From assembly GCF_009884975.1 (NCBI RefSeq), contig NZ_CP041970.1:930001-994000 (forward strand): a DNA stretch of 64,000 nucleotides, in the 5' to 3' direction. The translations under genes and the position numbers were made by a program. This stretch comes from Acinetobacter dispersus. Its GTDB lineage: Bacteria; Pseudomonadota; Gammaproteobacteria; Pseudomonadales; Moraxellaceae. The notes beneath the pieces are model-generated. The model saw only the letters and a program-made list of their open reading frames with translations, ran no database searches and was not told where the DNA came from. Positions 26,479 to 60,776 of the stretch are shown here, in pieces. Each line of letters opens with the position of its first letter. Within the stretch, counting starts at the first letter, position 1.

Positions 26479-27027
26479 ATGAAATCACCACAGAGATTAC
26501 AAACAGGTTTTACGCTTATTGAGGTCATGGTGGTGATTGTCATTATGACAATTATGGCATCATTGGTCGTCTTGAATATTGGTGGAGTCGATCAACGCCG
26601 AGCGATGCAAGCCAGAGAGATGTTTATTCTGGATCTCAAAAAAATTAATAAAGAAGCGACCGATCAAGCCAAGGTATTCGCTTTAAATACTCAAAACGCT
26701 ACTGATGTTGCACCATTTAGTTATAATTTATTTGAATATCATGATCAAAGCCGTGAACAAATTCAGCAGGCCGATCGTACTTGGCAACTTTATAAAGAGT
26801 TTAAAACACGTCAATTACCAGATCGTGTCTCTTTTAGTATTCAAAGCTTAGATGTTGAAAATTATAATAAAGCAAAAAATGAAGATTTATTGGGGGGCAG
26901 AGCGCCTCAGCTGATTTGGTTTGGGAATGGCGAGGTGAAACCTGTCCGGATCCAGTTTTATTATGAGCAGCAACCGATTGGCCACGAGTTTGCCTTAGAT
27001 CACTTGGGTAAAATAGATGAAAATTAA
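26479..27027 (+). CDS. gspH: Type II secretion minor pseudopilin GspH
   Basis: A 182-residue prepilin-like protein with a short leader ending GFTLIEVMVVIVIMTIMASLVVL: the glycine before cleavage, the conserved Glu at mature position 5 and the hydrophobic helix are all present. GspH (XcpU) is a minor pseudopilin of the type II secretion pseudopilus. It is the first of four consecutive minor pseudopilin genes H-I-J-K and overlaps gspI by 11 bp. The main gsp structural genes (C-G, L-N) are not in the window. Confidence 0.9.
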   Translation: MKSPQRLQTGFTLIEVMVVIVIMTIMASLVVLNIGGVDQRRAMQAREMFILDLKKINKEATDQAKVFALNTQNATDVAPFSYNLFEYHDQSREQIQQADRTWQLYKEFKTRQLPDRVSFSIQSLDVENYNKAKNEDLLGGRAPQLIWFGNGEVKPVRIQFYYEQQPIGHEFALDHLGKIDEN

Positions 27028-27676
27028 ATACTCAGAAGATCTTTCTTTGCGTTCTTACAACGTTAACCTTTGTACTCGAAGCATAGCTTCTCGTCTTTCA
27101 GAAGGACCGAGACCTGTTCACTTCGAGCATAGCTCTTTGTCTTCTTGCGGAGCTGTGCTTCTCAGGGAGAAACGTTGTTTCACTAATCCTGCAACTCGAA
27201 GCATAGCTTCTCGCCTTGCAGTAGATTTGAAACACCACACCTCAAGCATAGCTTTCGGTCTTGCAGCAGGGCCGAGCGGTGCTCGGCAGAGACCTGCTTC
27301 AGGATTTACCCTACTCGAAGTGATGGTGGCCTTGGCGATCTTTGCGGTTGCGGCAATTGCCTTAACTAAAGTTGCCATGCAGTACACACAGTCAACATCC
27401 AATGCGATCTTGCGGACCAAAGCACAATTTGTGGGAATGAATGAAGTCGCAATGATGGAAATTAATCAGGAATGGTTGGAAGGAACGCAATCAAAGCAAG
27501 TCACCTCTCAAGGTGAAACCTGGAAAATTGACAAAAAAGCCCAATCCACCATTAGCCCCAAGATACAGCGTATCGAATTGCAAGTCAGCTTATTTAATAA
27601 TGAGCAAGGTAAGGTTGAGGCGGGTATTACCAATCTTGTGTTCTTTAACTATCCAGCAAAGGCTAGAACACAATGA
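27017..27676 (+). CDS. gspI: Type II secretion minor pseudopilin GspI with repeat-derived N-terminal extension
   Basis: From about residue 96 the protein is a normal GspI (XcpV): GFTLLEVMVALAIFAV with Glu at mature position 5, then a pseudopilin body of about 120 residues. Residues 1-95 are not pseudopilin-like. They come from imperfect repeats (27074-27287) and contain TRSIASRL twice (residues 20-27 and 60-67). Family members carry the prepilin cleavage glycine within the first ten or so residues, so this leader is very long. The frame stays open. Translation could instead begin at a non-ATG codon nearer the motif, such as the in-frame TTG at 27227 (26-residue leader), but no good ribosome binding site is visible there. 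Confidence 0.85.
   Translation: MKIKYSEDLSLRSYNVNLCTRSIASRLSEGPRPVHFEHSSLSSCGAVLLREKRCFTNPATRSIASRLAVDLKHHTSSIAFGLAAGPSGARQRPASGFTLLEVMVALAIFAVAAIALTKVAMQYTQSTSNAILRTKAQFVGMNEVAMMEINQEWLEGTQSKQVTSQGETWKIDKKAQSTISPKIQRIELQVSLFNNEQGKVEAGITNLVFFNYPAKARTQ
27074..27287 (+). repeat. Cluster of palindrome-containing repeats inside the 5' end of gspI
   Basis: Four imperfect copies of a ~26-30-bp element around the core GAAGCATAGCTTC (itself an inverted repeat, GAAGC-ATA-GCTTC): 27074-27101, 27121-27150 (diverged), 27194-27221 and 27241-27266. Copies 1 and 3 are nearly identical over 28 bp. The cluster ends with a perfect hairpin GCCGAGC-GGT-GCTCGGC (27271-27287). A related GAGACCTG..TTCA string occurs after copies 1 and 4. 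The whole block keeps the reading frame of gspI open. Confidence 0.85.
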
Positions 27677-28383
27677 AATATACACGCTCAGGATTTACCC
27701 TCGTTGAATTGCTGGTTGCGATTGCAATTTTTGCGGTACTTTCTATGTTGGGTTGGAAGGTTTTTGATTATTTATTAAAAGTAAAAGACCGTAATGCGGA
27801 GCATGAGTTGCACTTATTTGCATTGCAAGATGCCTATCAGCAGGTGTTAAGGGATAGTCTGCAAATTATTCCACTTACAGCGAATGATGGACGACAACTG
27901 CAAGCAGCTTTGCTATTAAATGATCGAAGTTTTGTATTTAGTAAGGCAGGTGTTTCGGATCCATTAAAGCAAGGGCTGTCACCCTATGAGCGTATAGAAT
28001 ATCGTTATGATTCTGCACAGAAGAAAGTATATCGACTGAAATATTCGAATCTCAATATCCCGAATCGTGTACAGCCTGTTTCAAGCACCTTACTGGAAAA
28101 TGTAGATCAATTTAAAGTACTGGTTTTGAACCCACAAGAATTGACGCAATGGCCAGAAAATAGTGATCCAAACAATATTGCTGAGCTTAAAAAATTGCCG
28201 CTGGGTATCAAGATACAGCTGACCGTTGCAGGTACAGACTATGAATGGATTTATAGCTTGTTGAATACGCAGGCGTATTTGCAGGCGATAGGAAATTCAA
28301 ATGCCACGGGTGGAGGTACAAATCCACCAAATAATAAAGATGGATCAAATTCATCCAATCCTACTCAACTTCCAACCCAATGA
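27673..28383 (+). CDS. gspJ: Type II secretion minor pseudopilin GspJ
   Basis: A 236-residue pseudopilin with a six-residue leader and the cleavage motif SGFTLVELLVAIAIFAVLSM, including Glu5. The body has the GspJ (XcpW) pattern (YDSAQKKVYRLKYSN, LLENVDQFKVLVL). The C terminus ends in a low-complexity Asn/Gly/Ser/Pro/Thr tail. The start overlaps the gspI stop codon by four bases (ATGA), so it is translationally coupled to gspI. It forms the tip complex with GspI and GspK. Confidence 0.92.
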   Translation: MKYTRSGFTLVELLVAIAIFAVLSMLGWKVFDYLLKVKDRNAEHELHLFALQDAYQQVLRDSLQIIPLTANDGRQLQAALLLNDRSFVFSKAGVSDPLKQGLSPYERIEYRYDSAQKKVYRLKYSNLNIPNRVQPVSSTLLENVDQFKVLVLNPQELTQWPENSDPNNIAELKKLPLGIKIQLTVAGTDYEWIYSLLNTQAYLQAIGNSNATGGGTNPPNNKDGSNSSNPTQLPTQ

Positions 28384-60503: not shown

Positions 60504-60776
60504 AAGCTTTGGTGCAGCGCAAGTCTGAAACGTGAAAGAATAAAGTTAATCCGTTTTATGTAGGTATTAAAAAACGCCACCTGAGCAAGACAAAGCGGTT
60601 AAGCTTTGGCACAGCGCAAGTCAGGAATATGAAAGAACCATGTTGATTCGTTTTATGCAGGTATTAAAAAACGCCACCTGAGCAAGACAAAGCGATTAAG
60701 CTTTGGCACAGCGCAAGTTAGGAATATGAAAGAACTATGTTGATTCGTTTTATGCAGGTATTAAAAAACGCCACCT
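60504..60776. repeat. 97-bp tandem repeat array
   Basis: Three direct copies with an exact 97-bp period: 60504-60600 (diverged), 60601-60697, and 60698-60776 (truncated). Copies two and three differ at only two positions over about 79 bases. Each unit begins AAGCTTTGG and contains GGTATT followed by AAAAAACGCCACCT. The third copy continues into AAGTGACGTTT, completing the hairpin that terminates the minus-strand Sel1-like gene. No open frame crosses the units. Confidence 0.92.

Follow-up and report, generated by a model that had tools for sequence, protein, structure and literature searches.

A dispersed two-hairpin repeat fills the long leader of the pseudopilin gene gspI in Acinetobacter dispersus and is probably tolerated at the prepilin cleavage site

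Introduction

The gspI gene of Acinetobacter dispersus raises a question of origin and of tolerance: what fills a leader of 95 codons in a pseudopilin whose short-leader relatives have a GspI leader of 4-5 residues, and how might the cell put up with it? According to the parts of PMC10191384 that treat leaders, these segments are cytoplasmic by the positive-inside rule and variable in length, and a membrane peptidase cleaves them immediately ahead of the hydrophobic stretch. For A. nosocomialis M2, the portion of PMC4713064 on GspG reports that GspG-FLAG is processed by PilD. Throughout, the window refers to the whole stretch of DNA analysed, 64,000 nucleotides of contig NZ_CP041970.1, and positions are counted from its first letter. 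An initial annotation had described a gspI frame that begins at 27017, overlaps gspH and reaches the prepilin motif at residue 96, and translation from that ATG agrees, with 95 residues preceding GFTLLE.

The gspI leader and its repeats

The features of the locus are collected in Table 1. The leader is filled by four copies of a unit of about 60 nt, with only the last at full length. By repeat search the copies start at 27074, 27120, 27194 and 27239, in register, and copies 2-4 are 65-90% identical to the first; model R2, introduced below, matches the last copy at 27240-27301 (E = 1.6e-13) and the three others at E = 2.1e-6 to 1.6e-4. With up to two mismatches, GAAGCATAGCTTC has seven matches in the window; 100 shuffles averaged 1.65 matches, and one of them reached seven. 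The four imperfect copies of the initial annotation are thereby recovered, as is the peptide TRSIASRL, which is read twice in the translated leader. That annotation had also listed a 28-bp element and a GCCGAGC/GCTCGGC hairpin as separate features. Both sequences are present (GCCGAGC at 27271-27277, GCTCGGC at 27281-27287), but each is one half, left and right respectively, of a single unit of about 60 nt. The exact 13-mer GAAGCATAGCTTC occurs at three places in the 4.02-Mb genome, twice in gspI and once in the leader of the prepilin gene gspG. Downstream of the leader, the GspI core scores 51.7 bits against TIGR01707 (cut-off 44.35), PF02501 and PF07963 also exceed their cut-offs, and identity to strain ANC 3929 is 98% for protein and 89% for DNA.

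Table 1. Positions of the gspI locus features within the window
Feature	Position	Strand	Basis
gspH	26479-27027		ORF list
gspI, 219 codons: 95-codon leader and GspI core	27017-27676	+	ORF; TIGR01707; Pfam N_methyl at residues 94-116
ATG start codon of gspI, within the end of gspH; counterpart of the start in short-leader relatives (ATGAAAGCTAAAGG in L139)	27017-27019	+
Unit 1, truncated, mainly left hairpin	27075-27103	+	R2, E = 2.5e-5
Unit 2, truncated	27121-27164	+	R2, E = 1.6e-4
Possible right-hairpin remnant	27165-27189	+	Weak R2 match, E = 0.31
Unit 3, truncated	27195-27239	+	R2, E = 2.1e-6
In-frame TTG, alone as a possible start in the 40 codons before Gly; lacks a Shine-Dalgarno match of at least 3	27227-27229	+
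Unit 4, full length, both hairpins, ending at the Gly codon	27240-27301	+	R2, E = 1.6e-13; hairpin present in MFE fold
Gly(-1) codon GGA at the prepilin cleavage site; the unit is flanked on the right by its GG	27302-27304	+
CGCTCA directly 5' of the gspJ Gly codon, possibly a unit-end remnant (leader MKYTRS)	27685-27690	+

Architecture of the unit

Each unit is built of two hairpins in a fixed order: a left hairpin with an ATA-type loop, a CTTG foot able to pair with CAGG, a two-part right hairpin with a bulge, and CTCA. Outside prepilin genes, GG follows the unit directly at 23 of 32 sites and is lacking at the other nine. Model R1 was trained on 18 units from prepilin leaders, two of them from this genome. 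Since that training set consisted of prepilin copies, a second model, R2, was derived from 34 non-prepilin units, the alignment of which was fitted to the structure of R1. Covariation accompanies the proposed arms in both sets. Among the 18 leader copies (20 pairs), 27 cells changed on both sides compared with 9.0 after shuffling and 0-6 with partners slid, and among the 34 non-prepilin copies (33 distinct) the count was 113 compared with 31.9, in the alignment fitted to the model. In the sense direction, two of the three frames of a unit are usually open and the peptide read is basic and acid-poor. None of the Rfam 15 covariance models matched positions 26900-27800 of the window at E <= 1. 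The unit is best read as an element that carries no genes and is REP-like in shape.

Units in prepilin leaders

The sample of gspHIJ regions comprised 80 named loci (425,616 bp). All 100 matches of R1 in these loci are in the sense direction and lie inside open GspH, GspI or GspJ leader frames (55 in GspI, 33 in GspJ and 12 in GspH), distributed over 61 genes and 46 loci; GspI bears units in 35 of the 80 loci. R2 likewise returned 100 matches, of which 99 are sense and the other overlaps a sense match, the strands having been checked by script. In 56 of the 61 genes the last R1 match ends exactly at the Gly(-1) codon. At L107, L156, L163 and L170 the match stops short of the codon, yet TCA precedes it, which leaves gspJ of L111 as the true exception. 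No unit accompanies any of 27 prepilins with Ala(-1). Beyond these three genes, the affected families include GspG, a FimT/GspH-like protein, PilW and a ComP/PilE-like protein.

The frames of these leaders are kept. A start codon lies upstream in the same open frame in 59 of 59 unit-bearing leaders, compared with 9 of 32 non-prepilin copies; the 59 were defined by regular expression, with gspI of L107 added by hand, while the count by model is 61 genes. In their last 60 residues the leaders are basic (R+K 17%, D+E 3%). Together with the dispersed copies and the covariation, these open frames support the proposal in the initial annotation that a palindromic element family resides in frame in gspI. 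That annotation had also called for a comparison of GspI N termini, and relatives do vary, some with leaders of 4-5 residues and others with different arrays, so that no single long, repeat-free leader is common to all of them. On a tree of the GspH-I-J core, the presence of units in GspI requires at least 11 changes, nine of which fall on well-supported branches.

Coding sequence elsewhere carries units as well. The N-terminus of a gluQ-like gene holds an in-frame unit in L202, and in L213 and L229 a unit read antisense lies at the C-terminus of an SDR-like gene, all named by eye. Coding edges beyond prepilin leaders have therefore also been struck.

Distribution beyond the locus

The supposition that the repeat would recur elsewhere in the genome is borne out, and it extends to the genus and the family. 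Within this genome, R2 (E <= 0.01) found at least 19 matches that merge into at least 11 sites; 150 of 1617 first-look candidates were scored, and since the scans covered part of such candidates, site counts are minima. Three of the 11 sites found are prepilin leaders, namely those of gspI, gspG and the FimT/GspH-like gene. The genome has 19 prepilin-motif matches above the TIGR02532 cut-off and the other eight unit sites coincide with none of them; five of the eight were inspected and the remaining three were classed solely by lack of a TIGR02532 match. In the window itself, weak R2 matches on the minus strand at 60582-60633 and 60679-60730 (E = 0.009 and 0.025) fall between genes in a tandem repeat whose period is about 97 nt and which is perhaps a distant relative of the unit.

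Across the genus, R1 (E <= 0.01) detected the unit in 48 of 59 genomes. Across the family, at E <= 0.001, it was found in 29 of the 81 genomes sampled and in 6 of 16 genera, that is, in five genera besides Acinetobacter. Of 40 sites hand-picked among the genus matches listed, with known gspHIJ sites left out, eight are prepilin leaders. Several non-prepilin sites have the same right flank in different species while their unit numbers vary (L197/L216, L056/L201, L057/L195/L204/L210 and L058/L196/L205/L211/L215), so that many non-prepilin sites look old and vertically inherited. A different arrangement was seen in G119, a genome from another Moraxellaceae genus, in which ten loci (L244-L253) share a repeat of up to about 1.35 kb that contains a tnpB-like gene of IS605 type, so named by eye. 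A unit lies antisense near the 3' end of this repeat, with two in L244, and it therefore travels with an insertion sequence there.

In a plasmid collection searched at E <= 1, matches came from 19 records: 14 of Moraxella, four of Acinetobacter and one of Psychrobacter. The Acinetobacter matches are partial, at 44-50% of the query, and three of these four records are chromosome-sized; the window's own units had no match in the collection. Phages were considered as carriers and set aside, as the two phage-labelled records that match do so over 34 bases inside a bacterial gene annotation and were taken for bacterial contigs. A search of open-access full texts found no description of the repeat or of long Acinetobacter prepilin leaders.

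Filled and empty sites

The insertion point can be read by comparing genes with and without a unit. In the one-unit gspI genes of L136, L162 and L167 the arrangement is ATGAAAGCTA[unit]AGG, compared with ATGAAAGCTAAAGG in the unit-free relative L139. A second comparison is offered by an IS256 transposase gene. On a Moraxella osloensis plasmid (L299), a sense unit lies in frame in this gene, adding 60 nt to an annotated intact CDS of 419 residues, and on two other such plasmids (L302 and L304) the gene carries an antisense unit of 59 nt, so that its frame is shifted relative to L299, L301 and L305. In AP031474, two hypothetical proteins are annotated at the IS256 gene with the antisense unit. 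Related IS256 copies are empty at both places and have, at what would be the right end of the unit, AAGG for the L299 site and CAGG for the L302/L304 site. Filled and empty sites in both genes thus indicate that AGG is part of the target. Insertion is exact, with 0-3 nt lost or with ambiguous ends, and clear target duplication was not seen; no parent insertion sequence of the unit was found.

Prepilin cleavage sites often supply this target, as Lys-Gly and Gln-Gly codon pairs (AAA-GGN, CAA-GGN) provide AGG. Among unit-free genes, A precedes GG in 32 of 45 GspI, 36 of 62 GspJ and 27 of 73 GspH, which is the same order as the frequency of units. Since AGG is common, however, target choice and tolerance are not enough to account for the excess of prepilin leaders among the sites found in this genome.

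Array turnover

Arrays differ between close relatives in steps of whole units. The difference between two A. haemolyticus arrays is exactly one unit of 60 nt, located at the glycine end, and the same holds for A. higginsii and genomosp. 15BJ. A. colistiniresistens has the array of the window minus its first units, plus one unit at the glycine end beside a chimeric unit, from which it follows that arrays also recombine. The window and ANC 3929 share a nearly identical start of the leader and diverge in the rest of it. Units would be added to arrays, lost from them and exchanged, which is clearest at the glycine end.

Proposed explanation and its alternatives

The explanation we favour, and judge probable, is that the gspI leader array derives from a dispersed, REP-like element of the Moraxellaceae, about 60 nt long with two hairpins, which inserts 5' of AGG and is tolerated because PilD removes the leader. 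A unit would enter directly 5' of AGG, which the codons of a prepilin cleavage site often offer. Since the sense unit is mostly open and encodes a basic, acid-poor peptide, in-frame insertion adds length to the cytoplasmic leader alone. Prepilin peptidase would then cleave after the unchanged glycine and take the foreign peptide with it. We infer that the whole leader is translated and that PilD cleavage proceeds normally; peptide added at the cut site is probably trimmed off without harm, and a basic in-frame extension there should be tolerated and be absent from the mature subunit. If this is true, a site of protein processing has served a mobile repeat as a safe place to insert, many times within one genus. 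Natural leaders of 4 to more than 100 residues on near-identical cores would also make the leader-length limit of type III signal peptides, and any dependence of prepilin peptidase on that length, directly testable. In addition, start sites assigned automatically to Acinetobacter pseudopilins may be in error.

A distinct account, to which we give somewhat less than an even chance, is that there were one or a few initial insertions and that recombination, not repeated insertion, then carried arrays between prepilin genes and between species, with the common GGATTTAC...GAA motif as its anchor on one side. Homology-facilitated illegitimate recombination during natural transformation is the mechanism invoked for such spread. 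Chimeric units with mismatched arms, for example in L106 and also in L125 and L126, are consistent with it, as is the glycine codon: GGA is used in 6/6 unit-bearing against 4/73 other genes for GspH, 22/35 against 12/45 for GspI and 16/18 against 17/62 for GspJ, whereas it occurs in just 1 of 23 non-prepilin GG flanks. In L134, moreover, gspH and gspJ both have GGA with a unit while near relatives have Ala(-1). Against this, the link between GGA and units is not significant on phylogenetically independent pairs, and divergence of the motif is raised in only one of the two larger divergence bins (13 pairs), a mixed outcome for co-transfer of the motif. Exchange of units between prepilin genes of one genome is also weak, since units of different genes in the same genome are barely more alike (0.697 for 17 pairs, compared with 0.642, p = 0.055), and exact AGG junctions are found in the IS256 gene, which has no prepilin motif. 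Recombination among prepilin genes is kept as a candidate for the leader excess on mixed evidence.

Returning to repeated insertion, a bolder form of the favoured reading may be drawn, which we regard as doubtful. Here the unit would be a hairpin element, perhaps still active, that is moved by a transposase and whose own CTTG foot pairs with an NAGG target. The prepilin Gly codon would be a recurrent safe harbour, because the host peptidase erases the insertion from the mature protein, and the element may at times bring the Gly(-1) codon itself, as in L134.

A third account holds that translation restarts near the motif, as the initial annotation had suggested for a position near 27227, so that the leader of the precursor is short and the array belongs to the mRNA leader. 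We consider this unlikely, particularly as a general explanation. The window does have an in-frame TTG at 27227, 25 codons 5' of the glycine, and in GspG of the A. nosocomialis type (L294; also L296 and L297) a unit-bearing leader has an ATG five codons before the glycine (MKRAS), which makes restart possible in those genomes. However, the TTG is neither conserved nor accompanied by a Shine-Dalgarno match, and 13 of 36 unit-bearing GspI (those of the 35 loci and the window) have no in-frame ATG, GTG or TTG within 40 codons of the glycine, so that a late restart is not the general answer. No start within that distance has a Shine-Dalgarno match of 4 or more, and the frame is open in every one of the 59 leaders, which restart would not need.

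It is very unlikely, in our estimate, that selection for a host function, such as mRNA control or pseudopilin stoichiometry, maintains the hairpins or the long leader. The leader region of gspI folds better than shuffles (z -2.98) and the covariation of the arms is maintained, as this account would have it. Yet the presence of units is patchy, as the changes on the tree attest, leaders vary among close relatives, and covariation is equally strong in non-prepilin copies and thus belongs to the element. We find it scarcely credible that GspI and type II secretion suffer from the insert in this strain: 95 residues is far above the length in short-leader relatives, but frames are open and GspI cores conserved across many unit-bearing species, and the core in the window is nearly identical in protein to that of ANC 3929.

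Comparison with known systems

Within the mobile-repeat explanation, the unit may be set beside several known systems. Like the Rickettsia palindromic elements (RPEs), as outlined in the relevant passages of PMC10969869, it is a palindromic repeat found in frame inside protein genes, here in all 59 leaders and in an annotated IS256 transposase CDS, the RPEs being compared by description. The RPEs differ in being about 150 bp long and in occupying unrelated metabolic genes in the same account (PMC10969869), while the unit is about 60 nt long and, in coding sequence, clusters at prepilin cleavage sites.

The resemblance to REP/RAYT systems lies in the short, imperfect, dispersed hairpins and tandem arrays, which outside prepilins are mostly extragenic. 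Unlike those systems, the unit has frequent coding insertions and no linked RAYT was found: Y1_Tnp had no match in this genome and none in 49 of the 59 genomes of the genus, and of 20 Y1 loci fetched, the nine that were scanned had no unit at E <= 5, so that in none of those nine is a RAYT gene flanked by the repeat. Mobilisation of the unit by a RAYT was rejected on these grounds.

MITEAba12 and other Acinetobacter MITEs are described, in the sections of PMC10969869 that concern them, as non-autonomous mobile elements of the genus. The unit shares with them both the genus and the lack of autonomy; it differs in its length of about 60 nt and its internal hairpins, and from MITEAba12 it is set apart by description. 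Type IVb pilins and the pilins of Streptococcus sanguinis also have a long leader before the cut site, going by the leader passages of PMC10191384. The Acinetobacter leader is unlike these in being made of dispersed repeats and in varying among close relatives. The unit looks like a new family of palindromic elements that reside in frame and occupy an unusual niche, and by analogy it may work as the RPE and REP elements do.
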